DNA of 64,000 nt from Glutamicibacter soli (GCF_003309065.1 NZ_POAF01000004.1:124001-188000); one strand, 5' to 3'. Shown: positions 6,198 to 23,711, counted from the stretch's first letter. Numbers and translations: made by a program. The notes: generated by a model from the sequence alone, not told the origin.

Positions 6198-6220
6198 TTT
6201 CACTCGATGAGGAGTTCGAT

Positions 6221-7492: not shown

Positions 7493-8854
7493 ATGAATCA
7501 CGACACTGAAAATGTTGTGCCTGCTGCGCATGCACCCCGTGAGCGTCTGACTGGGCGCCACTGGCTCTACTTCACGATGATTACGCTGGTGCTGTTGACT
7601 GACGGCATGGACGTGACGATAGTCAGCCACGTTTTCCCCACGCTCATCAAAGATTGGGGAGTTTCGGTGGGCGGCGGCATCGCCTTCGTCGTCGCCGTGG
7701 GATTCCTCGCGATGGGTTTGGGCGCCATTATTTCCGGTGCCTTATCAGTGAGGTGGGGACGCAAGACTATTCTCATCCTCAGTGTCGTTATTTTCGGCTC
7801 CGCCACCGCGCTGGGAGGTACGTCCGCAGATTTTACGCAATTTGTCATCTGGCGTCTTCTTGGCTGTGTAGGAATGGGTGCTGCGATGGCCTCCGGCAAC
7901 ACCTTGCTGGCGGATCTGGTTCCGGCACGTAGTCGGGCCGCCCTGCTCGCAGCGGCCTATGCCGGTGTTGGACTGGGAACCACCATTGGCGCCACCCTCG
8001 CAGGCTTCCTGCTGCCCACCGTAGGATGGCGGGCGCTGCTGATAGTTGGCGGCGTGATTCCCCTGGTGATTATCGTTGTACTGGCCTTCGTAGTACCCGA
8101 GTCACCGGCGCGCCGTGCGGTGAAGCTGGCTGGGAATATACCGGTGAAAGTGCTGGCAAAAGATCGGGTCTCGGTCCGCAGTGACCTGGGGAAGAAGTTT
8201 GTGACCACCACTTTGCTGCTGTGGATCTTTGGCTTCTTTTCGTTGGGCACTCAGCTGCTCATTGCACAGTATCTGCCTACACTGTTGCAGTTGCCCGTTC
8301 CTGGCTTGGGCACGGTGCAAAGCAGCACCATTGTGGGTCTCTACGGGTTCACCAGCGTGCTGGGAAGCATCGTACTGGGGTTGCTCCTGGTACGCGGCTC
8401 CCGATTCACGGTGATTGGTGGTGCCTTGTGTCTGGCCGCGGTCATGGCACTGGTGGTTTCTATGGCGCGTGAACCAAGTTTTGGTTCATTGCTAGTCATT
8501 CTGGGGATTACCGGCTTTATTTTGCCCAGTTCTTTTGGGCCAACTCGTGGAGTTCTTGCGGCCATGAGCTTCCCGGAGAGCGCGCGTGGTTTGGGCATGG
8601 GAGTCACTGAATTCGGTGGCCGACTCGGCTCCGCGACAGGCGGGGTAGTTGGAGGAACACTGATCGCCACCGGTATGGGCTTGTCTGGTATCTTTTTGGT
8701 GCTGTTATTGCCTATCGGGGTCCTGCTTGGCGCGTTGGCTGGATTGCGTCAGCAGTCCCGGCACTTCCAAGCAGCGGAAGAAACATTTGATGGTTCGAAC
8801 GCTGCCAAACCAGGACCGAAAAGAAAAACACCATTGCAAAGCGTGGGGGACTGA
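7493..8854 (+). CDS. MFS transporter, aromatic-acid/H+ symporter-like
   Basis: 453 residues with about 12 membrane segments. The first segment reads ITLVLLTDGMDVTIVSHVFP, where the acidic D-G-M-D in TM1 is typical of the aromatic acid:H+ symporter (AAHS) group. The loop between TM2 and TM3 has GALSVRWGRKTIL, close to the MFS motif GxLxDRxGRR. It follows the binding-protein gene by 12 bases, in the same transcript. Having a proton symporter and an ABC importer side by side suggests either two forms of the substrate (for example glycoside and aglycone) or import plus export of an intermediate. A terminator-like stem follows at 8892. Confidence 0.85.
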   Translation: MNHDTENVVPAAHAPRERLTGRHWLYFTMITLVLLTDGMDVTIVSHVFPTLIKDWGVSVGGGIAFVVAVGFLAMGLGAIISGALSVRWGRKTILILSVVIFGSATALGGTSADFTQFVIWRLLGCVGMGAAMASGNTLLADLVPARSRAALLAAAYAGVGLGTTIGATLAGFLLPTVGWRALLIVGGVIPLVIIVVLAFVVPESPARRAVKLAGNIPVKVLAKDRVSVRSDLGKKFVTTTLLLWIFGFFSLGTQLLIAQYLPTLLQLPVPGLGTVQSSTIVGLYGFTSVLGSIVLGLLLVRGSRFTVIGGALCLAAVMALVVSMAREPSFGSLLVILGITGFILPSSFGPTRGVLAAMSFPESARGLGMGVTEFGGRLGSATGGVVGGTLIATGMGLSGIFLVLLLPIGVLLGALAGLRQQSRHFQAAEETFDGSNAAKPGPKRKTPLQSVGD

Positions 8855-9112: not shown

Positions 9113-10132
9113 CTAGGCGGAGACGCGTCCGCGCATGAATTCTTCATCCGGTGAGTCGGTGACCGGAAGGCCGGAAGCTTCCAGGCTTGCGCGTAGCTGC
9201 TTCATGAAGCGGTCAGGAAGCTTGGCTGCAGGTGGACGCAGTGCACCGCCATTGAAGCCCGAAAGCCATTCCTGGTACTTCCACTGGGTGCGGTTGATCA
9301 TATTGGTACCCGGGGTGGAGGTCGCGGAAACTGCGCCGTTTGCCGCGCGAGCTGGCTGGACCTTCCAGTACAGTTCCATGGCTTCTTCCCACTTGCCGGT
9401 CCGGGCCAGCTCGAACGCGCGTGGGTAGTAGTCACCCATCCAGTTGGTATTCGCAGTACCGGAGAACTGCATGTCCAAGACGGACATCAGCGGAATGATT
9501 TCGGACTCGATGGGGCAGGAGATGACGACCTCATCACGGAAGTGGTGGTACATCTCCATGACGCCGGGAATGCCTGGGTAACCCTGTTCTGCCTTGATCG
9601 CCACGATGCTTGGCATCGCGTCCAATATGCGGCGCACAAACTCAACGCTCATGCCAGCCGGGTGGATGCGTTCAAATCCCCACGCTGGCAGTGGGAAGAG
9701 CATGGCTGCCATGTTCGTTTCATCGGTGAACTTCTTGGTGTAGTCGAACACCTGATCATAATTTGTTGGCCAGAAGGATGCTGGGTAGGCAAGCAGCGTG
9801 CGGTCTGCGCCCGCGGCTTCGGCCAGATTTGCGGCGTGGATGTTCTCTTCCAGGGTGCCGAAGATCGCGTGGAAGAACAACGCGAAGTCCGGACCGGCCG
9901 CTTCGCGGGCAATCGCGGTGATCCGCGCGTTTTCTTCCGGAGTCACATTCGCTTCGGCCACAATCAGCGAACCGGCATAACCGCGTTCCTTGAGCAGCAG
10001 GATGTCATGGCGAATTGCGTTTTCATTGATTGCAGAAAAATCTGGCGTGAAAGACGGGTGGGTCACCGCGACGGTGCCGGTGAAATTCTCTCGGGCCCAG
10101 GAACGGGCTTCGGACTTGGCGTAATCCACCAT
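9113..10132 (-). CDS. Dihydrodipicolinate synthase-family aldolase/hydratase-aldolase
   Basis: 339 residues, longer than DapA (about 290) and closer in length to hydratase-aldolases such as trans-o-hydroxybenzylidenepyruvate hydratase-aldolase. The Schiff-base lysine is visible in MPSIVAIKAEQGYPG, and the tyrosine that shuttles protons is probably in LLAYPASFWPT. The family's substrate-loop GxTGE is replaced by AEANVTPEENARI. Class I aldolases of this family split or join pyruvate-type compounds in the cytoplasm. AAGGAG precedes the ATG. It lies 41 bases after the cyclodeaminase-family gene in one leftward operon. A role in cleaving a side chain or ring-cleavage product to pyruvate plus an aldehyde is a reasonable inference, and an aldehyde dehydrogenase is encoded next door. 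Confidence 0.8.
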   Translation of the reverse strand: MVDYAKSEARSWARENFTGTVAVTHPSFTPDFSAINENAIRHDILLLKERGYAGSLIVAEANVTPEENARITAIAREAAGPDFALFFHAIFGTLEENIHAANLAEAAGADRTLLAYPASFWPTNYDQVFDYTKKFTDETNMAAMLFPLPAWGFERIHPAGMSVEFVRRILDAMPSIVAIKAEQGYPGIPGVMEMYHHFRDEVVISCPIESEIIPLMSVLDMQFSGTANTNWMGDYYPRAFELARTGKWEEAMELYWKVQPARAANGAVSATSTPGTNMINRTQWKYQEWLSGFNGGALRPPAAKLPDRFMKQLRASLEASGLPVTDSPDEEFMRGRVSA

Positions 10133-10173
10133 GAGTTACTCCTTGTTTTTGGGTTGGTGTCTTAAAAAGTTAG

Positions 10174-11187
10174 TTATTTGCGGCTTGTAACGATGCCGAC
10201 GGGCAGGGCCGTGCCTACTCCCTCAGTGCGTGCTCGGTTCAGCAGCATCTCAGCTACAACAATGTCCTGCAGGCCAGAGCCCGTTGACTTGTAAATCCTG
10301 ATCCCCGTCTCGGTGTCGATCTGCCTCTCAGCACCTAGCGCAGCTTGCAATGGCAGTACTACGGCGTCTACATCGATTCCGGCTGCGCGCGCGGCGATCA
10401 TGTCGCCGCTGTCATGGACTACTTCTTCATAGGTGTCCACCACGATGGTGCTTGCCCGGCCAATCAATTCGACGGGTAGTTCACGTTGGGTCGGGGTAGT
10501 GGAACCGATGGAGACAACCGAAGCGTTGGCGCCAACCCAGTCGGCTTGCACGGTGGGCGATTCATTGCGCGAGCGGGCGGCGCAGAGGATCAGGTCCGCG
10601 CCTTCGACAGCCTCGCGAGCCGAGCCGACAGCGAGTGCCGGAGCGTCAAAAACACCGTCGAATTCCTTCGCGAAAGCTTCGCGGTTGGCCACAGTGGGGC
10701 TGAACACGCGGATATCTGCGAACTTCATCAGGTGGGAGAAGGCGGTGAGGTGGGAGCGGGCCTCGAATCCCGAGCCGATAATGCCTACGCGCATTGCGCG
10801 CTGCGGCACGATAGTGGAAACTCCAACAGCGGTGGTTGAGGCGGTGCGCAAACCGGTTACCCGGTTGCCGTCTATCAGTGCCACCAAGTCTGCGGTGTTC
10901 TTATCGAACAAGGAGATCAGGTAGCTGACGGTGAGCCCATCGGTGAATGATCCGGCGATGGACTTAGCACCAAAGACCTTACCGCTGGCAGGGGCCGACG
11001 GCATGATGCGCAACCACTCTTGCGGGGACTGAGCAAAAATTCGTCCCGGGGTTCGCAGCTCGTCGTTGTCGGTGCTGTAGGCCTCGCGAATTGCCTCAAT
11101 AGCACTGGGCCAATCCGAGAGGTGAGCGACATCAGCGTCGGTCAGGAACAGCGGAAAGTCCTGCGGCAGATTTCCTTCTGCACTCAT
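10174..11187 (-). CDS. Ornithine cyclodeaminase/mu-crystallin family protein
   Basis: 337 residues with a Rossmann NAD(P) motif VGIIGSGFEARSHLTAF near the middle and the family motif NRVTGLRTASTTAVG just before it. The C-terminal part has STGSGLQDIVVAEMLLNRA, also typical. The family includes ornithine cyclodeaminase, ketimine and pyrroline reductases, and lysine cyclodeaminase. All handle cyclic imines or amino acids, and the exact reaction cannot be told from sequence. Good SD (AAGGAG) before the ATG. First gene of the leftward pair with the aldolase, divergent from the aldehyde dehydrogenase across operator C. Its presence hints that the pathway substrate contains nitrogen or is linked to an amino acid. 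Confidence 0.82.
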   Translation of the reverse strand: MSAEGNLPQDFPLFLTDADVAHLSDWPSAIEAIREAYSTDNDELRTPGRIFAQSPQEWLRIMPSAPASGKVFGAKSIAGSFTDGLTVSYLISLFDKNTADLVALIDGNRVTGLRTASTTAVGVSTIVPQRAMRVGIIGSGFEARSHLTAFSHLMKFADIRVFSPTVANREAFAKEFDGVFDAPALAVGSAREAVEGADLILCAARSRNESPTVQADWVGANASVVSIGSTTPTQRELPVELIGRASTIVVDTYEEVVHDSGDMIAARAAGIDVDAVVLPLQAALGAERQIDTETGIRIYKSTGSGLQDIVVAEMLLNRARTEGVGTALPVGIVTSRK

Positions 11188-11261
11188 GGGCGTTCACTCC
11201 TTTGAAAGTCTGGAACACGACGAAGCATGCTCAGTCATGTGCATCACATCACGTGGCGTTA

Positions 11262-11292
11262 GGATAGATACTATCCGATACGAATCGTATCT
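11262..11292. promoter_or_regulatory. Shared operator copy C with two abutting palindromes
   Basis: GGATAG-ATA-CTATCC (11262-11276) abuts the perfect palindrome GATACGAATCGTATC (11277-11291). The island 17-mer spans 11276-11292 (CGATACGAATCGTATCT). It lies between the divergent cyclodeaminase-family and aldehyde dehydrogenase genes, 66 bases from the latter's ATG, and so could control both directions. Confidence 0.7.
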
Positions 11293-11358
11293 CATATACT
11301 CGGAGCAACAGGTTTTCGAAAATGACGAAAACGTACCCCAGCAAAGGAACTGAAAACC

Positions 11359-12735
11359 ATGGCAATCTCAACAGTGAATCCAACCACCGGCGTCACCGAA
11401 CAAGTCTTTGAGGCCCACTCCACCGAAGAAGTGGAGCGCCGCATCGCCTCTGCCGACGAGGCAGCGAAGATCCTGCGTGGAACCAGCTACGCGCGGCGGG
11501 CCGAATGGATGAAAGCAACCGCCCAGCTCCTGGAAGCTGAAGCTGAAGAGCTGGGAAGGCTGATCACCCTGGAGATGGGAAAGCCTATCGCGCAATCGGT
11601 CGCCGAAGTGCGCAAGTCCGCGGCGTCGATGCATTTCTATGCTGATAATGCCGAAAAGTTCTTGGCCGATACTCCTTTGGAAGACCCGTCGGTTGTTGGC
11701 GCTTCAAAGGCATGGACTACTTATCAGCCATTAGGCGCCGTGCTTGCGGTGATGCCGTGGAACTACCCCATTTGGCAGGTCATCCGCTTCGCAGCTCCTG
11801 CGCTGATGGCGGGCAATACCGGTCTGCTTAAACACGCCTCGAATGTGCCGCAGTCGGCAATCTACCTGGACACTCTCTTTGAACGAGGGGGCTTCCCTGC
11901 GGGCTCATTCCGCACGCTGCTCATCGGTGGCAGCGCGGTCGCCCCGGTTATCGCGGATCCGCGGGTTAAGGCCGTGACCCTGACCGGTTCCGAACCTGCA
12001 GGGCGTTCGGTGGCTTCGATTGCTGCGGATCATGTGAAGAAGTCGTTGCTCGAACTGGGTGGCTCGGATCCGTTTGTTGTCATGGATTCGGCCAACGTTC
12101 CTGCTGCGGCGGCTACTGCAGTGAGGGCGCGGATTAGCAATAATGGCCAATCCTGCATCGCGGGAAAGCGTTTTATTGTGCATACCGATGTTTATGACGA
12201 ATTTGCTGCTGAATTTGCACGGCTGATGGGTGAGCTCGTGGTGGGCGACCCAATGGATCCGGCGACGCAAGTTGGTCCACTGGCCACCGCCGATGGACGC
12301 GACGAATTGGCCGGTCTCGTGGATGACGCGGTGGCCCTGGGTGCACAGGTGCTTGTCGGGGGCTCAGCCCCGCAGGGTGAAGGGTATTTCTACCTGCCTA
12401 CGGTAATTGCCGGGCTAAGTGACGAAATGCGGCTGGTCCAAGAGGAAGCCTTTGGCCCGGTTGCCTCGCTATACCGGGTCCGGGACCGGGAAGAAGCACT
12501 GCAGGTTGCCAACCAGACCACCTTTGGCCTCTCCAGCGCGCTGTGGACCAATGACGCCGCCGAAGAGCAGTGGTTCCTGGAGCGGCTCGAGGCGGGAGCG
12601 GTGTTCATCAACGGGATGACGGTCTCAAATCAAGAGCTGCCATTCGGTGGGATTAAGCGCTCGGGCTTTGGCCGCGAGCTGGCCGCCGAAGGTATTCGCG
12701 AATTCTGCAACCTCAAAACGCTATGGAAGGCCTAG
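11359..12735 (+). CDS. NAD(P)-dependent aldehyde dehydrogenase, succinate-semialdehyde type
   Basis: 458 residues, the length of the GabD2-like class. Visible motifs: [22 protein letters not shown] (substrate and cofactor entry), [12 protein letters not shown] (NAD loop), [11 protein letters not shown] (general-base Glu), [12 protein letters not shown] (catalytic Cys) and [14 protein letters not shown] near the end. It oxidises an aldehyde to the acid in the cytoplasm. The best-fitting class is succinate semialdehyde, but these enzymes are broad, and here an aldehyde released by the aldolase may be the real substrate. SD AAAGGA stands before the ATG. It is the first gene right of operator C and is followed after 102 bases by the hydroxylase promoter. 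Confidence 0.88.
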
Positions 12736-12804
12736 ACGGGAGCATTCATTCAGTCCTGCCGGCCTGGCCACTTGTGTGCGGTCGTGACGGGTGTTACATT
12801 TATT

Positions 12805-12821
12805 CGAAACGATACGTACTG
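12805..12821 (+). promoter_or_regulatory. Shared 17-bp operator, copy D
   Basis: CGAAACGATACGTACTG, only 16 bases before the hydroxylase ATG and directly upstream of its SD (GAAGGAG). A site this close to the start fits repression better than activation. Confidence 0.6.
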
Positions 12822-12837
12822 AACTTGAAGGAGTGAG

Positions 12838-14343
12838 ATGGCAAAGATCGTTGAAGTTGACGTGGTGGTGGTTGGCGGTGGACCGGTGGGCGTTACTGCA
12901 TTGGCCTTACTGGGTCGCGCCGGCCTGAGCGCCGTTGGGGTAGAGCGCGAGATTCAGGCGTGGCCGACGGCACGCGCCGTGCATTTTGATGGAGAGATCT
13001 TCCGCACTCTTCAATCCTTGGGAGTGGCAGAGCGCTTCGCCAAGGCCACATTGCCGATGGCCTCGATGCATATCGAGAACGAGGCGGGCGAAGTCTTGAT
13101 TGCCGTGCCAACCGGCCAGCTCGGGGCGCAGGGATGGCACGACGATCTGACCTTCCACCAGCCTGAGATCGAATGCCTGTTGCATGAGGTCGTAGAGGAA
13201 CTGCCAGGCGTTGAGCTGCGCCGCGGCATGACGGTGCTTTCAGTGCGCAATGTTGCCGAAGGCGTCGAAGTTGCGGTGCAGAACGAGGATGGCGAGGAAT
13301 CCTTGATCCGCGCCCGTTGGGCCATCGCAGCTGATGGAGCCCGCTCGCAGAGCCGCAAAGCGCTGAACATCGAAACCGAAAAAATCGGCGAGGATGCGCA
13401 ATGGCTGGTTGCCGACGGGATCCTTGAAGACAGCCCCGGATTGTCCTCGGACATGATCTTCTTGGGTCACCATACCCGCCCTGCTTTGTGGATACGGCTC
13501 CCCGGCAAACGTGTGCGCATGGAGTTTATGCTCATGCCGGGGGACGACCCCGAGGAAATTACTACCCCGGCGGGCCTTGAGCGCCTCAGCCGCGGAGTGC
13601 TGCCGGCAGGTAAATTCACTGCAGACCGCCTGGCGACCTACACATTCCGTGGACGCATTTCCCGGCGGTGGCGTGCCGGCAACATTTTCCTGGCCGGCGA
13701 TGCCGCCCACCAGGCTCCACCGCTCTTCGGACAGGGCCTGTGCGCCGGAATGCGCGACGTCGCCAATCTGGTCTGGAAGCTGGACGCAGTCAAGCGCGGC
13801 GCTGCCGATGACAGCCTGCTTGACACCTATGAGTCAGAACGCTTGCCGCACGCACGGTTCTGGGTGGAGCAGGCTGCCAATGCCGCGGGCTTCCTGCAGA
13901 CCACCGATGCAGAGGTCGCTAAGCAGCGTGATGCCTTCATCCGCGCCAATCCCGCGGCCTCGGCACCCGTCGCACCCCCACTGGGGCCGGGTCTGCACGA
14001 GGGGGAAATCGACAGCCGCGCCGGACATCTGGCCACGCAGCCGATCCTCGCCGACGGGGTGCGCCTGGATGACATGGTCGGTTCCCGCTTCTTGGTGGCA
14101 ACAACTCCGGAGATCTATTCCGCCGTGCCGGCTGGGCTGCGCAGCCAGCTCGAGGACAACGATTTCGTTGTCGTCTTGTTTGATCCTGCCAAGGCCGGCC
14201 GGATTCTTGAAGCCGCCGGTGCCAAGGTCGTGGTTGTCCGTCCGGACCGCTACATCCTGGGTCTCGGGGATACCCCCGAAGCACTCGAACGCATCGCTGC
14301 CAGCATCCCGAAGGTCGGCCACGACGTGCCGGCGAACCTCTAG
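12838..14343 (+). CDS. FAD-dependent aromatic hydroxylase (MhpA/PheA-like)
   Basis: 501 residues of the group A flavoprotein monooxygenase family. The N-terminus has the FAD dinucleotide motif VVVVGGGPVGVTALALLGRAG followed by ER. Around residue 160 is the DG motif region (AIADGARS, read AIAADGARSQSRKAL), and near residue 285 the GD motif FLAGDAAHQAPPLFGQGLCAGMRD. These enzymes use NAD(P)H and O2 to add a hydroxyl ortho or para to an existing phenol OH in the cytoplasm. It resembles 3-(3-hydroxyphenyl)propionate hydroxylase. It heads the transcript with the ring-cleavage dioxygenase 57 bases downstream, so its product is probably a catechol-like diol. GAAGGAG precedes the ATG. Confidence 0.9.
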   Translation: MAKIVEVDVVVVGGGPVGVTALALLGRAGLSAVGVEREIQAWPTARAVHFDGEIFRTLQSLGVAERFAKATLPMASMHIENEAGEVLIAVPTGQLGAQGWHDDLTFHQPEIECLLHEVVEELPGVELRRGMTVLSVRNVAEGVEVAVQNEDGEESLIRARWAIAADGARSQSRKALNIETEKIGEDAQWLVADGILEDSPGLSSDMIFLGHHTRPALWIRLPGKRVRMEFMLMPGDDPEEITTPAGLERLSRGVLPAGKFTADRLATYTFRGRISRRWRAGNIFLAGDAAHQAPPLFGQGLCAGMRDVANLVWKLDAVKRGAADDSLLDTYESERLPHARFWVEQAANAAGFLQTTDAEVAKQRDAFIRANPAASAPVAPPLGPGLHEGEIDSRAGHLATQPILADGVRLDDMVGSRFLVATTPEIYSAVPAGLRSQLEDNDFVVVLFDPAKAGRILEAAGAKVVVVRPDRYILGLGDTPEALERIAASIPKVGHDVPANL

Positions 14344-14400
14344 CCCAAAAATTCTCAAGACACACCTCCGCCCAGGCGGAAAGAACTACAGGAGAAAATC

Positions 14401-15339
14401 ATGGCCTTCAGCCCAATCACACACCTGCGTCACTTCGATATCGCGGTGCCTGATTACAAAAAACAGGTTGACTTCTACAAGAACCACTGGGGATTGACCG
14501 AGATGCAGGACGACGGCGGAGTGACCTACTTTGCCGCCGAAGGTTCCCCGGAGCAATACTCGGTCCGCGTCCGCGAGGCCGACGAAAAGCGCCTTGACAT
14601 GGTCGCGTTCGGCGCTGCCGACAATGCCGCGGTGGACCAGCTTGCCTCGGACCTCATTGCCAAGGGGGTGAAGCTCATTGGCGAACCCGATGACCTCAAA
14701 ACGCTTGGCGGGGGGTACGGCTTCCGATTCTTCGACTTGGAAGGACGAACCATCGAGGTCTCCTCGGATGTCGAGGTGCGCAAGCACCGCAAAATCGAGG
14801 AACGCGAAGCCATCCCGGTGCGCCTATCCCATGTGGTGCTCAACTCCCCGGAACCGGAGAAGATGCTCGCTTGGTATGAGCAGCACCTGGGCTTCCGGCT
14901 CTCCGACACACTGAACCACCCGCGCGTGGGGGATCTGTTCTACTTCCTGCGATGCAACTCGCAGCACCACTCCATCGCCATTGCCCGCGGCCCGCACGCC
15001 TCGCTGCAGCACGCGTCCTTCGAACTGCGCGGGATCGACGAGTACATGCGCGGCAGCGGCAAGCTGTTGCGCTCGGGATTCAAGAAAATCTGGGGACCGG
15101 GACGCCACAGCGCCGGGGACAACACCTTCACCTACTTCCACGATCCCAACGGCAACACCATGGAATTCACCACCGAACTTGATTCGATCGACGAGGACAC
15201 CTGGCACCCGAGCATTTACGACACTTCTGATCCGATGACCTCGGACCAGTGGGGCACCGGCGGGGATATGGATGAATTCATTGCCAAGGAAATGTTCAAC
15301 GACAAGGACAAAGGTCTTTTCGTCCCGCCACCGGTATAG
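14401..15339 (+). CDS. Extradiol ring-cleavage dioxygenase, two-domain VOC type
   Basis: 312 residues with two vicinal-oxygen-chelate modules, roughly 5-125 and 138-265. The second module carries all three Fe(II) ligands: His144 (RLSHVVLNSPEP), His204 (SLQHASFELRG) and Glu255 (DPNGNTMEFTTE), as in type I extradiol dioxygenases such as BphC and catechol 2,3-dioxygenase. It would open the diol made by the preceding hydroxylase by meta-cleavage. CAGGAG precedes the ATG. The C-terminal 40 residues after the module are an acidic extension. No alpha/beta meta-cleavage hydrolase or 4-oxalocrotonate enzymes follow; instead fumarylacetoacetase-family hydrolases do. Confidence 0.92.
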   Translation: MAFSPITHLRHFDIAVPDYKKQVDFYKNHWGLTEMQDDGGVTYFAAEGSPEQYSVRVREADEKRLDMVAFGAADNAAVDQLASDLIAKGVKLIGEPDDLKTLGGGYGFRFFDLEGRTIEVSSDVEVRKHRKIEEREAIPVRLSHVVLNSPEPEKMLAWYEQHLGFRLSDTLNHPRVGDLFYFLRCNSQHHSIAIARGPHASLQHASFELRGIDEYMRGSGKLLRSGFKKIWGPGRHSAGDNTFTYFHDPNGNTMEFTTELDSIDEDTWHPSIYDTSDPMTSDQWGTGGDMDEFIAKEMFNDKDKGLFVPPPV

Positions 15340-15368
15340 GCAAGAACATGATGGAACGTGGAGGAGTC

Positions 15369-16400
15369 ATGAAGGAAAATCGCATCGGCGGATTCAAGCT
15401 GGGCACCTTCGAGGATGGCACGGAGCAATTTCCCGGGGCCGTCTTTGAGGACCAGGTCGTGAACCTGCGCAGCGTGCTGCCGGGCATCACCCGGATCGGG
15501 GACCTGTTTGCCGACTGGGACAACAATCTGGACTTAATCGAGTTCCTCGACCCGGCCGCCGCAGGTGCACGCCCGCTGGCGGGGTTGGGGGTGCTTCCAC
15601 CGCTGCAGCCGGTGGGCACCATCATCGCCGCCGGGGCCAACTACCGTGAGCACGTCATTCAGATGAGCGTTGCCCACAAGCTGGGGAAAGAAGGTGCCGA
15701 CGAGAATCAGTTGGCGGCCGACGCCGCGGCCGAAATCGACGAACGTGGCCGTACTGGTGATCCGTACGTCTGGACCGGGATCCCCTCCGCTGTCTGTGGC
15801 GCATATGACGACGTGCAGTTGCCCGATGTCGGCGGCAACGTCGACTGGGAGCTGGAGCTGGGTGTGGTCATCGGTCGTAAGGCGCACCGGATTGCGGCAG
15901 CAGGTGCCATGGATTACGTCGCCGGGTACACTATCGTCAACGATGTCACTTCGCGCGCTCTCGTGCCGCGCACCGACATTGCGATGATGGGTACCGACTG
16001 GTTCCGGTCGAAGAACCAGCCGACTTTCTTCCCCACAGGGCCCTATGTGGTGCCGAAGCGGTATGTGCCGGACCCGGCAAAGCTGCGGATCCAATTGAGC
16101 CTCAATGGCACGCTGATGCAAGATGCCCTGGCCGATGACCTGCTCTTCGACATCCCGAGCCTGATCGCCTACGCATCCTCTGTCGCGGTACTGCAACCCG
16201 GTGATGTGCTGATCACCGGTTCTCCGGCGGGCAATGGTTCGCATTGGGGTCGGTTCCTGCGTGATGGAGATGTGATGGAAGCGGAGATCACCGGTCTCGG
16301 GGCCCAGCGCTCGACGGTCCGCGGACCTTCCGGGCAGTTGCCTCCCTGGTACGCAGACCGTCCGATTGCGGTTGCCGCGGCCGGTGGGGCAGCCTCGTGA
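15369..16400 (+). CDS. Fumarylacetoacetate hydrolase-family protein 1
   Basis: 343 residues from the ATG at 15369, preferred because GGAGGAG lies just upstream. An ATG at 15348 would add seven residues. The FAH fold is clear from residue 70 on (GTIIAAGANYREHV, GGNVDWELELGVVIG with the metal-binding Glu pair, YTIVNDVTSRALVPR, QPGDVLITGSPAGNG). A 40-residue insert (HKLGKEGADENQLAADAAAE) follows the NYREH motif, which is unusual. Family members hydrolyse C-C bonds of acylpyruvates or diketo acids, or decarboxylate and isomerise, with Mg2+ or Mn2+. It is 29 bases past the dioxygenase, so likely processes the ring-opened product, and it overlaps the next start by 4 bases. Confidence 0.85.
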   Translation: MKENRIGGFKLGTFEDGTEQFPGAVFEDQVVNLRSVLPGITRIGDLFADWDNNLDLIEFLDPAAAGARPLAGLGVLPPLQPVGTIIAAGANYREHVIQMSVAHKLGKEGADENQLAADAAAEIDERGRTGDPYVWTGIPSAVCGAYDDVQLPDVGGNVDWELELGVVIGRKAHRIAAAGAMDYVAGYTIVNDVTSRALVPRTDIAMMGTDWFRSKNQPTFFPTGPYVVPKRYVPDPAKLRIQLSLNGTLMQDALADDLLFDIPSLIAYASSVAVLQPGDVLITGSPAGNGSHWGRFLRDGDVMEAEITGLGAQRSTVRGPSGQLPPWYADRPIAVAAAGGAAS

Positions 16401-17227
16401 TACTGCGCCAAAGCCACTTCGTTCCGCCGGTACCCTACCTGCTGGCTACCGAGCTGGGATTCTTGGATAGCGTTGAGGTTCAGTCCACCCGGACCACCTC
16501 CAGCGCGGAGCAGCTCGCCGGGCTGCTGGACGGCACCATTGACGTGGCCATCACCGCCATGGATAACTTGTTCGAATGGGACCGGGCCGGTGCTCGGTTG
16601 CGTCTCATTGCTCAAGTCGAGGCGACCACCCCGCTGGGCATCTATGCGCGTGATGAGATGGCAACTATGGCGGATCTGGCTGGATTCAGGTTCGCCGTGG
16701 ACGCCCCGGATAACGGTTTTGCCCTACTTGCACGGCATCTGCTGGGCGGCGCAGGAATCGACGTGGATTATGTGGTGATCGGCGGGGTACGCGAACGATT
16801 TGAAGCACTGCTAGCCGGAGAAATCGACGCGAGCCTGCTCGGCCCGCCATTCGACAAGCTTGCTGAACAAGCCGGTATGAGGTGTGTGTCAGAGGTGAAC
16901 GAACTTCTGCCGCAGCTGCCGGGCCAAGGTCTGGTGGTGCGTACTGAGTTATTGGGATCTGAGGAGCTCACCGGATACATGCGTGCGCTGGCACGCGGTG
17001 CCGCGTCCGGTGAATCGATGGACGAGCAGGCCGGCGTGGCGCTGCTTGAGCGTCATGGCTATCAGTCCGCCGCGGCAACTGCATGGGCTGCGCGGGCGAG
17101 GACATTATCGGTGGATCCCATGGGCCTGGAGCTGCTCACGCAGATTCGCCGTGGACTCGGAATGCTCTCAGGCCGCAAGCCGCTGGCGGAATTGTGCGAA
17201 ACTGGGCCGCTGCTGCGGGCCAGCTGA
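16397..17227 (+). CDS. Signal-less periplasmic-binding-fold (NMT1/SsuA-like) protein, possible enzyme
   Basis: 276 residues starting with GTG inside the stop of the preceding gene (GTGA overlap), so translation is coupled. There is no signal peptide or lipobox: it begins MILRQSHFVPPVPYLLATEL, straight into the type 2 periplasmic-binding fold. The pattern LAGLLDGTIDVAITAMDNLFEW, VDAPDNGFALLARHLL and GEIDASLLGPPFD matches NMT1/SsuA-like domains. A cytoplasmic binding fold in an operon of catabolic enzymes suggests an enzyme. The fold is known for 4,5-dihydroxyphthalate decarboxylase and the Thi5 pyrimidine synthase. No ABC partner of this class is nearby. Function unresolved. Confidence 0.75.
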   Translation: MILRQSHFVPPVPYLLATELGFLDSVEVQSTRTTSSAEQLAGLLDGTIDVAITAMDNLFEWDRAGARLRLIAQVEATTPLGIYARDEMATMADLAGFRFAVDAPDNGFALLARHLLGGAGIDVDYVVIGGVRERFEALLAGEIDASLLGPPFDKLAEQAGMRCVSEVNELLPQLPGQGLVVRTELLGSEELTGYMRALARGAASGESMDEQAGVALLERHGYQSAAATAWAARARTLSVDPMGLELLTQIRRGLGMLSGRKPLAELCETGPLLRAS

Positions 17228-17268
17228 ACCATGAGTTTTTGAAGCATTGCATTTTCGTAACCTTAATG

Positions 17269-17285
17269 CGATACTATACGTATCG
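17269..17285 (+). promoter_or_regulatory. Shared 17-bp operator, copy E (best palindrome)
   Basis: CGATACTATACGTATCG: two perfect 6-base half-sites around TATAC, 25 bases before the next ATG. The site itself contains a TATAC/TACTAT core that could be part of a -10 box, so binding would block the promoter. Confidence 0.7.
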
Positions 17286-17310
17286 AATCTATTACAGAGC
17301 AGGAGAAGCC

Positions 17311-18327
17311 ATGAAATTTGGGCGCATTGCAGTAGACACCCCCGATGGTGAACAGATTCGCCTGGTTGCCGCGGAGCCGGACTCCGGCCGAGTTATCGAT
17401 CTGGCGAGGTCATACGCACTGACCTTGCAGCGCAAAGGTGCCGAACCAGAGCGCGCCCGAGAACTTGCTCTGGCGGTACTTCCCGGAAGCCTGGCCGCGG
17501 GACTCGGGGGAGGTTCTATCTTCCTTGACGCCGCGCATGACGCCTTGGGTGCAGCTGATGATGCTTCTTTCGCCATTGATGAAGTCTCTTGGCGCGCGGC
17601 CGTTGACTCCCCGGTCATCCGCGACGGGCTGACCTTCGAGAAGCACATCCAGAACTTCCACCGGATTGTTGCCAAGGCGCAGCCGGCACGCTCGATCTAC
17701 GACCGCCCGGGCTACTTCAAGGGCACCACCGCCATGTCCTACGGGCATAACCAGGAACTGCCCTACCCTGATTTCACCGAACAATTGGACTGGGAACTGG
17801 AGATCGGCTACGTCGTGGGCAAGTCCGGCAGCAACCTGACCCCGGATAACGCGATGGAGCACCTCTTCGGCATTACCGTCTTCAACGACTTCAGCGCCCG
17901 CGACATCCAGGGCGCGGAAATGCCCATCGGCATGGGCCCGCAGAAGTGCAAGGACTTCGGCTACGGCATCGGACCCTGGGTCACCACGATGGACGAAATC
18001 GACTCCCTCGAGGGACTGCACGGCCAGGTCCGCGTCAACGGCGAGGTGCTCTCGGACACCAAGGTCGAGGACTTCGTCTACACCCCCGCGGAACTGCTGG
18101 CCTACGTCTCGATCTCGGACCGCCTGCAGCCAGGGGACCTCATCGGGTCCGGCACCATGGGCTTCGGTGCCGGTGTAGAAATCGGTACGTTCCTCAAGCC
18201 GGGCGATGTCATCGAGCTCGAGGTCGAGGGCGTTGGTACGCTGCGAACCCCAATATCCAAGGAACGCGAGAAGGCTCCTTGGTGGCCAGAGCCACGCCAG
18301 TACCCACACGAAAACTGGGTTGCGTAA
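17311..18327 (+). CDS. Fumarylacetoacetate hydrolase-family protein 2
   Basis: 338 residues from the ATG at 17311, preceded by AGGAGAAG. The N-terminal 100 residues form the variable cap (MKFGRIAVDTPDGEQIRLVA). The catalytic half has DRPGYFKGTTAMSYGHNQEL, LDWELEIGYVVGKSGSN with the metal Glu residues, ITVFNDFSARDIQGAEMPIG and DLIGSGTMGFGAGVEIG. This is the branch containing true fumarylacetoacetases and 2-keto-4-pentenoate-type hydrolases. It differs clearly from hydrolase 1 encoded 1 kb upstream, so the two probably act on different intermediates. It has its own promoter with operator E and is translationally coupled to the cupin gene (TAATG). Confidence 0.88.
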   Translation: MKFGRIAVDTPDGEQIRLVAAEPDSGRVIDLARSYALTLQRKGAEPERARELALAVLPGSLAAGLGGGSIFLDAAHDALGAADDASFAIDEVSWRAAVDSPVIRDGLTFEKHIQNFHRIVAKAQPARSIYDRPGYFKGTTAMSYGHNQELPYPDFTEQLDWELEIGYVVGKSGSNLTPDNAMEHLFGITVFNDFSARDIQGAEMPIGMGPQKCKDFGYGIGPWVTTMDEIDSLEGLHGQVRVNGEVLSDTKVEDFVYTPAELLAYVSISDRLQPGDLIGSGTMGFGAGVEIGTFLKPGDVIELEVEGVGTLRTPISKEREKAPWWPEPRQYPHENWVA

Positions 18328-18935
18328 TGTCCCGCCCGCCAGTTCGCCGGATAGTTACCGGCCACAATGACCAAGGTCTCGCAGTCATACTGTCGGACGC
18401 AGACGCACCGCACCATTTCTCCTCGGACGCGATTCCAGGCTTTGGAGCCACGGTTCCGTGGATGACCAAGGCCGGCGTTATCGACCACGTCAGCGATACT
18501 GACATGGCCAGTGCTGACACGGAAATTCCAAGTTTCCCGGCCCCGGGAGAGACGATTATGCGGATCGCGGATTTTCCGCCTGATTCCGTCTACCCCAAGG
18601 AAGCAAATTCGGCGATCTTTGACGAGTTGGACGGCCATGAGGAAGCGGAAGTCGGTGCTGAACGCAGCGGAGGGAAGCACTTCTGGTTCCACCGCACCGA
18701 ATCCTTGGATTACGCGGTAGTTCTGGAAGGCGAAATCACTCTACTCGTTGATGATGGTGAGGCCACGATGCGAGCCGGAGACGTAGCGGTACAGCGAGCT
18801 ACCAGTCATGCATGGTCAAATCGAACTGACAAAACTGCCAGAGTCCTGTTTGTGTTGATTGGCACCGAACCGATCTCGGCTTCAGAGATTGCGAGTCAGC
18901 GTCGAGTAAATTCAACGTCTATGGATGCATCATGA
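18327..18935 (+). CDS. Cupin-domain protein
   Basis: 202 residues starting at an ATG that overlaps the previous stop by one base. A cupin barrel fills the second half: GKHFWFHRTESLDYAVVLEGEITLLVD is conserved motif 1 with a partial metal-ligand set, and AGDVAVQRATSHAWSNRTDKTARVLFVLIG is motif 2 with its His. The N-terminal 70 residues (RRIVTGHNDQGLAVILSDAD) resemble the leader of cupins often found with aromatic hydroxylase genes. It may be a dioxygenase, isomerase or small-molecule sensor; sequence does not decide. Its stop overlaps the next start by 4 bases. Confidence 0.8.
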   Translation: MSRPPVRRIVTGHNDQGLAVILSDADAPHHFSSDAIPGFGATVPWMTKAGVIDHVSDTDMASADTEIPSFPAPGETIMRIADFPPDSVYPKEANSAIFDELDGHEEAEVGAERSGGKHFWFHRTESLDYAVVLEGEITLLVDDGEATMRAGDVAVQRATSHAWSNRTDKTARVLFVLIGTEPISASEIASQRRVNSTSMDAS

Positions 18936-20902
18936 TTATCGATATCGCCGCAGCAGATGGTGAAATAATTTGGCAGCCGGATAGCGCAGGAATTACGCAG
19001 ACCGGTGTCGCACGGTTTGCCGAGTTCGTTGCGCAGCATGGCCATGACTCCAAAAATGACTATGATTCACTCTGGCAGTGGTCAGTTGATGAGCCTGCAG
19101 AATTTTGGGAACTTTTTGCCAAATTTGCTGGAGTGGAATTTGGGGGTGTGGCCGGTGACGTTGTAAGCCAAGACCCAATGCCCCACACAAAATGGTTCCC
19201 CGGACGTACGCTGAATTTTGCCAGGCACCTGCTTCATGGTCATGAGGGCACCGCGTTAATTGCCATTTCGGAAGATGGCGGGCGTGAGGAAACGAGTTGG
19301 GAGTCTTTGCGCGGCGAAGTTGCGGCCCTCGCACAGTACTTGCGTACGCAAGGCGTGGGTCAGGGTGATCGTGTTGTTGCGATCCTCCCGAATGTCGCCG
19401 AAGCAGTGGTGGGTCTGCTCGCCACAGCTTCGCTTGGTGCCATCTGGTCGATTTGCGCCCCCGAGTTTGGTGCCGGCGCAGTCGTTTCGCGTTTTGCTCA
19501 GCTGGAACCGAAAGTAGTGCTTGCAGCGCCTGGCTACATGCTGGGTGGCAAGGACCGTGACCGTCGGGATGAACTGAATGAAATTATCGCTCAGTTGCCC
19601 ACCGTGGAACAGCTTATCTGGGTTGAGCGACACACTTCGATTCCTACATTCGACACTAAGATCCCGGCAAGCACCTGGGAAAAGGCGGTAGCCGAACCTG
19701 CAGAACTGCGTTTTGCGGACGTTGAGTTCAGCCACCCACTATGGGTGCTGTTCTCCTCCGGTACTACGGGTATTCCTAAGGGTATTGTGCACGGTCATGG
19801 CGGAGCCTTGCTTGAGGAGCTGAAAATGCTTCTGATTCACTCTGACCTGCGGCCAGGAGATCGTTACCTAAACGTGGCCTCGACCAGCTGGGTGCTCTGG
19901 AATGCACTGGTCAGTGCTCTGGGTGTGGGAGCAACGGCCGTGCTTATTGACGGCAACCCGGTTTTCCCTTCACTGGATAGGGTCTGGCAAATTACTGCGG
20001 ACGAGCGTGTTGCGGTTCTGGGTGTGGGTGCGGGCTTTGTCCATGCATGTGCCAACACGGATTTGGTGCCAAAGAGCCAGCATGATCTTGTGTCCTTGAA
20101 GAGCTTGCAAGTTACGGGTTCTCCGCTGTCCGCGGATGGATTCCGCTGGGTCTACGCACATGTGGGAGACATCTGGCTGGCTTCTATGAGCGGCGGAACG
20201 GATATTGCTTCGATATTCGTGGGTGGATCTCCGACTATGCCTGTCCACGTTGGGTATATCCAAGCGCCAGCGTTGGGCGTGCGGGTTGAATCATGGGATG
20301 AGCAAGGCGACCCGACTACGGGCAAGGGCGAGCTAGTAGTCACTCAGCCGATGCCTTCAATGCCCCTGAGTTTCTGGGGAGATGACGGTACTAGGTATCA
20401 CGAGAGCTACTTCAGTACGTATCCTGCAGTATGGCGCCATGGAGACTTTATTGAGTTCACCCGTCGAGGCATCCTCATCCATGGTCGTTCAGACTCAACG
20501 CTCAACCGTAATGGATTGCGACTTGGCTCAGCAGATATTTATGCTGCTGTTGAATCCCTGCCTGAGGTTGTCGAAGCCTTGGTTGTTGGGGTGGAGCTGG
20601 GTACCGAGTACTATATGCCGCTTTTCGTTCAATTGACCAATGGGGCAGATCCAGAGGTAGCTAAGGATGCAATCATCGGGTCCATCCGGGAGAATCTATC
20701 GGTCCGGTACCTACCAGATGAGATTGTGTTCATGCGAGCTATTCCGCATACTCGTACTGGCAAAAAACTCGAGGTTCCGGTCAAGCGGATGCTTCAAGGG
20801 ACCCCGCTTGAGAAGGTTGCAGATCTGGGTGCAGTGGATGATCCAGAACTGCTGGAAGTGTACTCCGAGTTTGCGCTGGAGAAGCAATCGGTGAATTTAT
20901 AA
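18932..20902 (+). CDS. Acetoacetyl-CoA synthetase (acetoacetate-CoA ligase)
   Basis: 656 residues of the ANL superfamily, with the length and N-terminal ACAS region of acetoacetyl-CoA synthetases (SLWQWSVDEPAEFWELFAKFAG, then MPHTKWFPGRTLNFARHLL). The AMP-binding P-loop is LFSSGTTGIPKGIVHGHGG, the hinge is HGRSDSTLNRNGLRLGSADIY, and the catalytic lysine is in TGKKLEVPVKRML near the end. It joins acetoacetate to CoA with ATP in the cytoplasm. The last gene of the operon, overlapping the cupin gene by 4 bases. Its presence implies that the pathway releases acetoacetate, a typical product of fumarylacetoacetase-type hydrolysis. Base composition is slightly more AT-rich than the neighbours. Confidence 0.92.
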   Translation: MIIDIAAADGEIIWQPDSAGITQTGVARFAEFVAQHGHDSKNDYDSLWQWSVDEPAEFWELFAKFAGVEFGGVAGDVVSQDPMPHTKWFPGRTLNFARHLLHGHEGTALIAISEDGGREETSWESLRGEVAALAQYLRTQGVGQGDRVVAILPNVAEAVVGLLATASLGAIWSICAPEFGAGAVVSRFAQLEPKVVLAAPGYMLGGKDRDRRDELNEIIAQLPTVEQLIWVERHTSIPTFDTKIPASTWEKAVAEPAELRFADVEFSHPLWVLFSSGTTGIPKGIVHGHGGALLEELKMLLIHSDLRPGDRYLNVASTSWVLWNALVSALGVGATAVLIDGNPVFPSLDRVWQITADERVAVLGVGAGFVHACANTDLVPKSQHDLVSLKSLQVTGSPLSADGFRWVYAHVGDIWLASMSGGTDIASIFVGGSPTMPVHVGYIQAPALGVRVESWDEQGDPTTGKGELVVTQPMPSMPLSFWGDDGTRYHESYFSTYPAVWRHGDFIEFTRRGILIHGRSDSTLNRNGLRLGSADIYAAVESLPEVVEALVVGVELGTEYYMPLFVQLTNGADPEVAKDAIIGSIRENLSVRYLPDEIVFMRAIPHTRTGKKLEVPVKRMLQGTPLEKVADLGAVDDPELLEVYSEFALEKQSVNL

Positions 20903-21397: not shown

Positions 21398-22296
21398 GTG
21401 AACAAAAACCTAAACACCCTCCTGACAAAACTCTACGTGTTCGTCACCGACCATGTCATCCCAACCATGCCCGCAAGGCCACGACGAGGACGACGGCAAT
21501 TACTCACCGACGCGGAACTGCTCTGCCTGGCTGTGGCCCAGCACCTGCTGCACGGGGACGCTTCCGAGTCCCGGTGGATCCGCTACGCCCGCACCCACCT
21601 GGCTGGCATGTTCCCGCATATTCCCCAGCAATCCGGATACAACAAGAGGATCCGCGCCGCCGCGCCCCTGGTGTCCCATACCCTGAGCGTCCTGGCCAAG
21701 GACGTCCCCACCTGGAACGACGTGCTGCGGCTGCTGGATTCCACCCCGGTGCCCTGCGGCCAGTCACGCGAAACGGTGAAACGCTCGGACCTGGCCGGGC
21801 AGGCCGGCTACGGGTACTGCGCCTCGCATTCACGGTATTTCTGGGGTTCCGGCTTTACCTGGTCGCCACCCCTGAGGGCATGCCGGTGATCTGGGGGTTG
21901 GCCAATCCGAAGATCGGTGAGCGTGAAGCGATCGCCACGATGCTTGATGCCAGTAGCGACCTGGTGGCCGACGGGCAGGTGATCCTGGCGGACAAGGGCT
22001 TCGCCGGCAAACAGTTCGAAGCGTTTATCAGCGGGGACCTCAAAGCGCATTTGCTGCGCCCTGATCGGAAGGATGAGAAGCCGCGGTTTGGGGATTTCGG
22101 CGGGATCCGCCAGTGGGTCGAGTCGATCTTCGACACCCTCAAAGGGCAGTTGGGTTTGGAACGCCACGGGGCCCGGACCTTGGAGGGGGTGATGGCGAGG
22201 GTGGCGTGCAAGCTGTTGGCCATGGCGGCAGGGATCTGGCACAACTGGAAGATTGGCGCCCCGCGCAAGCGCTCTCTGGTCGCGTATGACCATTGA
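21398..22296 (+). pseudogene. IS982-family transposase, single-base frameshift
   Basis: Two overlapping frames together encode one IS982-type DDE transposase of about 300 residues. The first part runs from MNKNLNTLLTKLYVFVTDHV to GYGYCASHSRYFWG; the second resumes as FRLYLVATPEGMPVIWGLAN and continues through VILADKGFAGKQFEAF to the 3' end. The joint lies in GGGGTTCCGG near 21845-21852: one extra T would restore FWGFRLYL. The DDE residues appear in LDSTPVPC, ILADKGF and the later VESIFDTLKGQLGLERHG region. Either a real inactivating deletion or, less likely, a programmed frameshift. Terminal inverted repeats were not resolved by eye. Confidence 0.8.
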
Positions 22297-22319
22297 GGAC
22301 GCGGGGCGGTCATTAGGAA

Positions 22320-22416
22320 TTAATCATCTGTGAGACTTTTCCTAGCTGGTCTGGGACTGGCTGGCAGGATAGGAACCGGCCCTCTCGCCCCTGGGAAGCG
22401 ACTCGTTAATCATCTG
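22320..22416. repeat. Direct repeat TTAATCATCTG between the two IS elements
   Basis: The 11-mer TTAATCATCTG occurs at 22320-22330 and again at 22406-22416. It lies just after the IS982-type gene and before the IS110-type leader, so it may mark an element boundary or a duplicated target. Evidence is positional only. Confidence 0.4.
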
Positions 22417-22439
22417 ACCCGCGATGGTGTCGTTCTCTA

Positions 22440-22622
22440 GACTTGCCCTTCCCGCAGGGCGGGTCGGCCGGTGCCAATCCGGCCCACGACGGTAGTTTGA
22501 TCAGAAGATTGTCCACCCCAGCCGGGGCGTGACTCGTCACAGTTCTGTTCCGTAGTGACCCTTACCCGGACTGGCACCGGCCGTTTGCGGCCATCCGCCC
22601 AGATCCAGCACAGGAAAGCACG
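22440..22622 (+). ncRNA. Candidate IS110 bridge RNA (left-end noncoding region)
   Basis: This roughly 180-base leader directly upstream of the IS110 recombinase is rich in stems. GCCCT/AGGGC pairs at 22445-22460, GGCCGG/CCGGCC pairs around the loop TGCCAAT at 22466-22484, and a GGCCG-TTTG-CGGCC stem lies near 22579. IS110-group elements are known to encode a bridge (seeker) RNA in the noncoding end next to the recombinase, with two loops that pair with target and donor. The assignment rests on position and folding only; exact ends are unknown. Confidence 0.5.
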
Positions 22623-23711
22623 GTGACCGCCTTGACTATCGTCGCTCATTGCCACCCATTTGTCGTGGGTGTCGACACTCACGCCCGCAACCACGTCTAC
22701 GCCATTGTTGATGCCGGCAATGGTGCACTCATCGACACCCAGACGTTCCCCGCCAGCGCAGCTGGCATCAGCCGGGCCATCGCCTGGGTTTCCCGCCGCA
22801 CCAACGCCGATACCCAGACCCTCTGGGTGATCGAAGGCGCCGCCTCCTACGGGGCCATCCTGGCCGGCACCGTCGATACCCGGGGCTACCTGGTCGCCGA
22901 AGCGCCGCGCATGAGCCCCAAGGCCTACCGCGGAGTCGGCAAGTCCGATGTGTTGGATGCCCACCGGATAGCCACCGCGACGCTGCCCTTGGACACGGAG
23001 AAGCTACGCCGTCCGCGCCTGAATGAAGGGATCCGGCAAAGCCTGCGCATCCTTGTCACCGCCCGGACCTCCATGAGAAAGGATCGCACCCGCTCGGTGA
23101 ACGCCTTGAACGCGTTGGTACGTACCAATAGTCTGGGCATTGACGCCCGCAGAAAACTCACCGGTAGCCAAATGCAGGAGATCAGCCGCTGGCGTGAGCA
23201 CGACGAAGAGCTGTCCTTGTCGGTCGCCCGGAGTGAAGCGGTCCGGTTGGCCAAGCATGTCCTGGAGCTCGATGAGCAACTCTCGTGCAATGAGAAGGCT
23301 CTGGATGATCTTGTTACGGTCAGCGAAGCAGCACCGCTGCTGGAAGAAACCGGCATCGGCGTGGTGACCGCAGCGAAGTGTTTCGTCGCCTGGTCCCACG
23401 AAGGACGGGTGCGAGATGAAGCGGCGTTCGCCTGTCTGGCAGGCGTCAACCCGATCCCTGCCTCGTCGGGTAATACCACCAGGCACCGGCTCAACCGCGG
23501 TGGTGACAGGGCGTTGAACAGCGCCCTGCATCTGGCTGCCGTGGTCAGGATGACCCACGATGAGCAAACGCGTGCGTACGTTGAGAAACGACGCGCCGAG
23601 GGCAAGACCGACAAGTAGATCCGGCGGTGCATCAAGCGCTACCTGGCCCGCCGGATCTTCCGCATCCTGAGCAATTCGGTCAAAAGCCAGAGGGCTCAGA
23701 ACGCAGCTTGA
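22623..23711 (+). pseudogene. IS110-family recombinase with premature stop near its C-terminus
   Basis: The open frame gives 331 residues to a TAG at 23616-23618. The same frame continues after it as IRRCIKRYLARRIFRIL and ends at 23711, which is the expected C-terminus of the family, so a GAG-to-TAG type change has cut off about 31 residues. The N-terminal RuvC-like DEDD domain is visible (VVGVDTHARNHVYAIVDAG, then WVIEGAASYG, then GKSDVLDAHRIA). The C-terminal domain has EETGIGVVTAAKCFVAW and the serine-bearing NPIPASSGNTTRHRLNRGGDRAL. GTG start. These enzymes insert DNA with guidance from a bridge RNA. Probably inactive now, but loss of the terminal helix may not abolish function. Confidence 0.85.

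Follow-up and report, generated by a model that had tools for sequence, protein, structure and literature searches.

Among the processes that shape root microbiomes is the oxidative degradation of flavonoids by bacteria. As far as the literature was searched, the route through the A ring has been genetically defined only for the fde and ifc systems, both from Proteobacteria. In Variovorax sp. V35, IfcA gives 8-hydroxydaidzein and IfcB gives X2 (m/z 301.035); X3 is 2-hydroxy-5-(4-hydroxyphenyl)-4H-pyran-4-one, the gene for the step from X2 to X3 has not been identified, and the cupins IfcD1 and IfcD2 lead to C10H10O3 and C10H10O4 (PMC11069340). In naringenin degradation, FdeE and FdeD have been described (PMC8552027), as has fdeC (PMC11069340). 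Here we describe an island of about 25 genes from Glutamicibacter soli, lying in and just upstream of a 64,000-nucleotide stretch of its genome (GCF_003309065.1 NZ_POAF01000004.1:124001-188000; hereafter the window). The island is flanked by insertion sequences and appears to be both co-regulated and transferable; its substrate may be a plant phenolic of the aryl-chromone type, with an isoflavonoid as the likeliest, a judgement that we hold as evenly balanced.

Like ifc, the island combines a group A flavin hydroxylase, a VOC extradiol dioxygenase and a cupin that would act after ring fission, and the formulas of the ifc intermediates fit its enzymes; unlike ifc, its hydroxylase and dioxygenase belong to other subfamilies, and its ending in acetoacetyl-CoA synthetase (AACS), thiolase and thioesterase has not been described there. 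With the fde operon of Herbaspirillum seropedicae and the fde-like operons of Azospirillum, Burkholderia and Diaphorobacter (L070, L071 and L072; L numbers denote the loci compared) it shares A-ring hydroxylation, extradiol fission and a fumarylacetoacetase (FAH)-family protein, and with the latter two also a cupin, whereas the Rieske protein, prolyl-oligopeptidase-type hydrolase, cyclase and, often, NAD-epimerase of those operons are all missing from the island core. A literature search for a cluster with the island's own gene list found none.

The original prediction, made for positions 9113-20902, named a flavin hydroxylase, a VOC dioxygenase, two FAH-family proteins, a DapA-type aldolase, an ornithine-cyclodeaminase (OCD)-family protein, an aldehyde dehydrogenase (ALDH) and AACS. 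All eight lie there and belong to those families (Table 1); residues 144, 204 and 255 of the VOC enzyme are indeed His, His and Glu, and the two FAH proteins, here FAH1 and FAH2, are as dissimilar as had been claimed (25% identity). Also part of the set, but absent from that list, are an NMT1-like protein (16397-17227), a cupin (18327-18935) and genes on the flanks, and the pathway genes reach past 9113-20902 and past the window's edge. The family assignments are far above chance (AACS 728 bits, FAA_hydrolase 204 and 179, Aldedh 444); the DapA match is weak. AACS passes the curated cut-off for acetoacetate-CoA ligase (TIGR01217; 728 against 520.9 bits). Model scores and gene content also bear out the view that classic meta-cleavage and the homogentisate route can both be set aside: the VOC enzyme scores 123 bits against 320 for catechol 2,3-dioxygenase and 109 against 321 for HpaD, no meta-cleavage hydratase or HOA/HpcH aldolase is found among the block's annotated genes, and neither homogentisate 1,2-dioxygenase nor maleylacetoacetate isomerase among its scanned proteins. 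A cupin is in fact present, though it is no homogentisate dioxygenase.

The downstream half of the block has clear relatives. On Bradyrhizobium plasmids (L040 and L051), OCD, DapA and SSADH genes lie together with genes for a VOC enzyme, a Rieske protein and an FAD hydroxylase, an order that resembles the FdeC/FdeD/FdeE arrangement of naringenin degradation. Between the island and these clusters the identities are 55% for FAH2, 46% for DapA, 46% for the cupin, 37% for OCD and 36% for ALDH; L051 has as extra genes the FAH protein (55% to FAH2) and the cupin (46%) along with a beta-keto acid cleavage enzyme. The cupin is also 36-41% identical to those of L041, L071 and L072, with values of 36-38% for the fde-like operons, and its family, which includes PDB entries 8x0u and 8x0v, is broad. 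In Roseomonas an FdeC-type VOC gene adjoins DapA, and in Paraburkholderia hospita the two lie within about 25 kb on one plasmid. The identification of the Bradyrhizobium genes as fde/ifc orthologues relies on the reported presence of ifc homologues in that genus (PMC11069340) and on the gene order. The pathway, which had been called unassigned, is thus not wholly so, since its downstream half is common to fde/ifc-type flavonoid clusters.

The same gene set was sought in other genomes, as had been suggested, and a conserved syntenic block was found in other genera. It is syntenic in Arthrobacter (L004-L008) and in another Glutamicibacter locus (L012), occurs in further Micrococcaceae (L085 and L086), and is reduced or rearranged in Salinibacterium (L009), Corynebacterium (L011 and L037), Micromonospora (L013), Nocardia (L014) and Rhodococcus koreensis (L042). 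The block is uncommon: VOC was found in 2 of 18 Glutamicibacter genomes (with 99% identity to the homologue in G. ardleyensis) and DapA in 10 of 295 Micrococcaceae, in 3 of 396 Actinomycetota, two of these three being only 31-33% identical, and in 3 of the 369 genomes of a sample of Gammaproteobacteria. Every DapA homologue of more than 40% identity whose surroundings were examined adjoins both ALDH and OCD. One Streptomyces locus (L036) has the hydroxylase, VOC, FAH1, FAH2, cupin, AACS, NMT1, thiolase and PaaI genes without DapA, OCD or ALDH in the flanks seen, so that these three look like a separable module.

Seven intergenic positions, spread over 26 kb of the island, carry copies of a palindrome, CGATACGNNNCGTATC. 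In the genome of 3.84 Mb it occurs at four loci with no more than one mismatch, and the island holds three of these, at OCD/ALDH, TetR/thiolase and FAH2. At two mismatches there are four more island intergenic sites on contig C20, of which positions 124001-188000 are the window: C20:115416, 117734, 125871 (before the ene-reductase gene) and 130181 (before the importer). The words GATACG and CGTATC are likewise concentrated in the block, whose 954 intergenic bases hold 7 of the window's 20, with 0.3 expected. Arthrobacter (L004-L008) and Salinibacterium (L009) both retain the site between OCD and ALDH, in which the two words stand nine bases apart. Because CGATACGNNNCGTATC recurs within the island and is rare in the rest of the genome, the island genes probably form one regulon, in keeping with the joint induction on which the original prediction depended.

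The chemistry of ifc gives a second kind of evidence. By computed formula balance, X2 plus water, less pyruvate, oxidised and less CO2, is C11H8O4, exactly X3. Opened X3 becomes C10H10O3 by loss of CO2 and C10H10O4 by addition of water and loss of formate, which are the two IfcD product formulas, and C10H10O4 fits 4-(4-hydroxyphenyl)-acetoacetate. Such a balance is necessary and not sufficient, as the same formulas can be reached by other routes. For the gap that follows ring fission in ifc, the island supplies named candidate genes.

We infer each individual reaction of the following scheme, and the substrate, from these comparisons. An optional start would be O-demethylation by a P450 and ene-reduction by an old yellow enzyme (OYE)-family reductase. 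The MhpA-type enzyme would then hydroxylate the A ring and the VOC enzyme open it; by our own reasoning, fission of a 7,8-diol at C8-C8a should yield a pyrone that bears -CH=CH-CO-COOH as its side chain. With 5-deoxy compounds, DapA may split this ene-pyruvate side chain into pyruvate and an aldehyde for oxidation by ALDH; 5-hydroxy compounds would carry an acyl-pyruvate there, to be cut by FAH1. Division of this trimming between aldolase and acylpyruvase, matching absence and presence of the 5-hydroxyl, is suggested by the island. The resulting pyrone-carboxylate would be decarboxylated, the NMT1-fold protein being the candidate, and the 4-hydroxy-2-pyrone opened and trimmed by cupin and FAH2 to a 3-keto acid, which for isoflavones would be 4-(4-hydroxyphenyl)-acetoacetate. 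AACS and thiolase could convert this aryl-acetoacetate to 4-hydroxyphenylacetyl-CoA and acetyl-CoA, and the PaaI-like thioesterase release 4-hydroxyphenylacetate into the homoprotocatechuate pathway. The narrower claim, that a DapA-type hydratase-aldolase with ALDH carries out the step from X2 to X3 and that CoA ligase, thiolase and thioesterase lead to 4-hydroxyphenylacetate in an undescribed actinobacterial route of isoflavonoid mineralisation, is put forward tentatively, at somewhat less than an even chance. Ring opening, FAH steps and an acetoacetate-type beta-keto acid, as originally envisaged, remain the best reading, strengthened by the thiolase and PaaI-type thioesterase of the regulon, and the idea that the aldolase takes off a side chain fits well. 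The proposed end product finds suggestive support in one genome, that of Streptomyces aurantiogriseus, in which a hydroxylase/VOC/FAH2/cupin/AACS/FAH1 block is followed about 2 kb on, in one direction, by an operon of HpaB (638 bits, curated cut-off 480), an HpaG-like fused FAH protein (745, cut-off 444), HpaE (680, cut-off 638) and HpaD (387, cut-off 321), as suits 4-hydroxyphenylacetate.

NahE and PhdJ are hydratase-aldolases of polycyclic aromatic hydrocarbon degradation. The island DapA resembles them in its DapA fold, in the proposed retro-aldol cleavage of an arylidene-pyruvate to pyruvate and aldehyde and in the aldehyde dehydrogenase that would follow, but has no recognizable sequence kinship with them in the profile search of solved structures. 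The class I aldolase lysine of DapA-type sequences is present: K180, the Schiff-base lysine, falls within the stretch that aligns with the IK motif of DHDPS and is invariant among 11 homologues. DapA is a putative hydratase-aldolase. In FAH1, whose best structural match is L-2,4-diketo-3-deoxyrhamnonate hydrolase ahead of acylpyruvase FAHD1 (Table 1), the metal-binding E-x-E and D motif is kept, DWELELG and the following Asp aligning with FAHD1 and its relatives; it may be an acylpyruvase. FAH2 scores 67.6 bits against a fumarylacetoacetase cut-off of 375. The NMT1-like protein has no signal peptide in the inspected alignment and is cytosolic; its AlphaFold model (pLDDT 92) has a PBP-II fold and matches SsuA, Thi5 and DszB, a set of transporter proteins and, in Thi5 and DszB, enzymes, so that it may act as a decarboxylase or lyase. 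Members of the OCD family are reductases or dehydrogenases that depend on NAD(P)H and act on many substrates.

Several observations weigh against an isoflavonoid route of the fde/ifc kind. BLAST at a threshold of 1e-3 does not match the MhpA-type hydroxylase with the FdeE-type enzyme of Bradyrhizobium. The VOC enzyme belongs to the same superfamily as the Bradyrhizobium FdeC-type enzyme, to which it is 31% identical over 217 residues; that FdeC-type enzyme is itself about 60% identical to the VOC enzymes of fde-like operons. Hydroxylase and VOC enzyme both fail the orthology test with fde/ifc, so that the ring-opening half is not orthologous, and we describe the island as similar in operation to those pathways rather than as one of them. 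No chalcone isomerase, glycosidase or other flavonoid-specific gene is found among the annotated genes, in which no systematic search was made. Among the best 60 profile matches of DapA in solved structures only DHDPS and N-acetylneuraminate lyase types appear, NahE and PhdJ not being named, and the AlphaFold model of DapA (mean pLDDT 59.6) is unusable for a fold search. The PaaI-type protein matches a single family at E up to 1e-20, the hydroxyphenylacetyl-CoA thioesterases (TIGR02286), where its 102.5 bits fall under the cut-off of 118.9. OCD is given no part in the scheme, and the HpaD of the organism's own genome was dropped as support for a 4-hydroxyphenylacetate product, being present in 263 of 290 Micrococcaceae.

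The same logic could serve a 2-aryl chromone (flavone, flavonol or flavanone), which we consider unlikely, though the best placed of the other explanations. The opened 6-aryl-4-hydroxy-2-pyrone would then be an aroyl-acetoacetate, split by FAH2 in fumarylacetoacetase-like fashion to an aryl carboxylate and true acetoacetate, which AACS and thiolase would take to acetyl-CoA. This would suit the score of AACS, well above the acetoacetate cut-off; the formulas balance (4-hydroxybenzoate plus acetoacetic acid), the genome has a pcaGH-type intradiol dioxygenase pair, and the naringenin (fde) pathway leads to protocatechuate (PMC11303751). An arylacetyl-CoA, however, is the better fit to two observations, the conservation of the PaaI-type thioesterase and the 4-hydroxyphenylacetate operon next to the block in Streptomyces.

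Less likely again is a simple resorcinol-type phenol (orcinol, an alkylresorcinol or umbelliferone-derived dihydroxyphenylpropionate), from which a trihydroxy ring would give a 2,4,6-trioxo acid, and acylpyruvase FAH1 pyruvate and a 3-keto acid for AACS. The MhpA-type hydroxylase and the Streptomyces core without DapA, OCD and ALDH in the flanks seen agree with this, as do two described systems. HcdABC of Pseudomonas mandelii 7HK4 combines flavin hydroxylase, extradiol dioxygenase and C-C hydrolase on a resorcinol-type ring (PMC6222606), but consists of three genes only, without DapA, OCD, ALDH, cupin or AACS; in the ipp cluster of Rhodococcus sp. D-6 an extradiol dioxygenase, an FAH-domain protein and AACS are co-induced (PMC12442392), but the monooxygenase is two-component, the substrate an alkyl-hydroquinone, and DapA, OCD and cupin are lacking. 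Such a substrate would make the conserved DapA, ALDH, cupin, second FAH and NMT1 protein superfluous, and would leave the sharing with fde/ifc-type clusters unexplained.

It is rather improbable that the island houses several independent peripheral pathways, with the VAO-type oxidase, SDR and P450 upstream of the window serving eugenol- or guaiacol-type phenols. The closest relatives of the VAO-type flavoprotein do include eugenol and allyl-syringol oxidases, the P450 is closest to 6g71 (an Arthrobacter P450) and then GcoA, and each of these two is seen in only some carriers; yet the operator sites are common to the island, and its core is conserved as a unit. A nitrogen-containing ring, as had been hinted, for which OCD would have an amine or imine as its substrate, is very improbable, as only the OCD family name points that way, no specific OCD model reaches its cut-off for this protein, no amidase, deaminase, aminotransferase or other nitrogen-specific gene is linked among the genes examined, and the Arthrobacter 4-hydroxypyridine kpi cluster, tried as a match, was ruled out by its different gene set (PMC7356986).

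On the aryl-chromone reading, Glutamicibacter most likely feeds on plant flavonoid-type compounds, with later enzymes common to isoflavone- and naringenin-type clusters, and the island would extend the A-ring route to Arthrobacter relatives, Corynebacterium, Rhodococcus and Streptomyces.

Table 1. Features of the island within the window (positions counted from the first base of the window)
Feature	Position	Strand	Remarks
PaaI/hotdog thioesterase	1-360	+	begins 66 bases before window, directly after thiolase; 75% to Arthrobacter L006
Ene-reductase, NADH:flavin oxidoreductase (OYE) family	489-1817	-	PF00724 175 bits
Operator-like palindrome before OYE	1871-1892	.	CGATACGNNNCGTATC family, 2 mismatches
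ABC importer	2615-6098	-	permeases 2615-3634 and 3631-4590, ATPase 4587-about 6098; PF02653, PF00005
Operator-like palindrome between importer genes	6181-6201	.	2 mismatches
Importer solute-binding protein (Peripla_BP_4)	6221-7480	+	PF13407 90 bits
MFS transporter	7493-8854	+	PF07690 147 bits; 66% in L004, 48-53% in L008, L011, L037
DapA-fold enzyme	9113-10132	-	339 aa; PF00701 27 bits, cut-off 22 (weak)
OCD/mu-crystallin family reductase	10174-11187	-	PF02423 134 bits; adjoins DapA
Perfect palindrome CGATACGAATCGTATC between divergent OCD and ALDH	11276-11292	.	sole perfect match in genome
ALDH, SSADH-like	11359-12735	+	Aldedh 444 bits; NF006915 707 bits, below cut-off 730
Operator-like half site GAAACGATACG before hydroxylase	12806-12821	.	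>2 mismatches in genome scan
Class A flavin hydroxylase, MhpA-type subfamily	12838-14343	+	NF004829 438 bits, cut-off 390
VOC-superfamily extradiol dioxygenase	14401-15339	+	PDB 3b59 240 bits; ligands H144, H204, E255
FAH1, proposed acylpyruvase	15348-16400	+	FAA_hydrolase family; best PDB 8gsr 126 bits; FAHD1 101 bits
NMT1-like protein, proposed decarboxylase/lyase	16397-17227	+	PF09084 41 bits
Operator palindrome before FAH2	17269-17289	.	1 mismatch
FAH2, proposed beta-diketone/keto-aldehyde C-C hydrolase	17311-18327	+	PF01557 179 bits
Cupin, proposed pyrone-opening enzyme, IfcD-like	18327-18935	+	PF07883 39 bits
AACS, beta-keto acid CoA ligase	18932-20902	+	TIGR01217 728 bits, cut-off 520.9
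Transposase genes, two insertion sequences, right boundary	21398-23618	+	ORFs 21398-22296 and 22623-23618; called by inspection

Transposase-like ORFs lie on both sides of the island. The region upstream of the window (L088) carries in its first part genes for an SDR, the VAO-type flavoprotein, an MFS transporter, an MBL-fold protein, AraC and LysR, and nearer the window the P450, then a ferredoxin reductase, TetR and the thiolase (77% identical to a block-linked Arthrobacter thiolase), followed by the PaaI-type thioesterase that enters the window. The OYE gene is linked to the block in L006, L008, L009, L037, L042, L085 and L086, and the ABC importer is syntenic in L005, L007, L009 and L013 and partly in L004. 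At 442 aa, the OYE-family reductase exceeds a lone OYE domain by about 100 aa, and its cysteine-containing tail recalls the iron-sulfur portion of 2,4-dienoyl-CoA reductases; its nearest NCBIfam model is mycofactocin OYE 2, with a score far under the cut-off.

A second conserved arrangement was seen in Streptomyces, Kitasatospora and Lentzea (L017-L032 and others), with an FAH1-like gene, other genes, VOC (64-68%) and an FAH2-like gene (33-38%), and without window-type hydroxylase, DapA, OCD or AACS; it is probably a related but different pathway. In Streptomyces sp. LUP47B (L016:455-6223) a fused iron-alcohol-dehydrogenase/intradiol dioxygenase, a flavin hydroxylase and an amidohydrolase adjoin a hydroxylase/VOC copy, suggesting a hydroxyquinol route nearby. 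An acetoacetate--CoA ligase gene on a Rhodococcus qingshengii plasmid (NZ_CP089607.1; L045:9983-12067), the N-terminal part of which is 51% identical to VOC over 260 residues, appears to be a fusion or recombination of VOC and AACS. Fragments like FAH1 and NMT1 beside the fde-like genes of Bradyrhizobium (L051:3766-5316, in Bradyrhizobium sp. 2S1, and L040:4801-5379) are possibly a decayed copy of the module. Variovorax legume-root plasmids, considered as carriers of the ifc cluster, were set aside, as they have DapA, OCD, SSADH, cupin, FAH and epimerase genes but not the FdeC-type VOC. On a Variovorax boronicumulans plasmid (L069:2260-8343) a malonate decarboxylase operon lies about 10 kb after an OCD/DapA/SSADH/cupin/FAH cluster, malonate being a plausible product of splitting such a 3-keto acid. 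Elsewhere in the window, at 58052-58168 (+), a SAM-IV riboswitch (90.7 bits) is the sole Rfam match over the gathering score.

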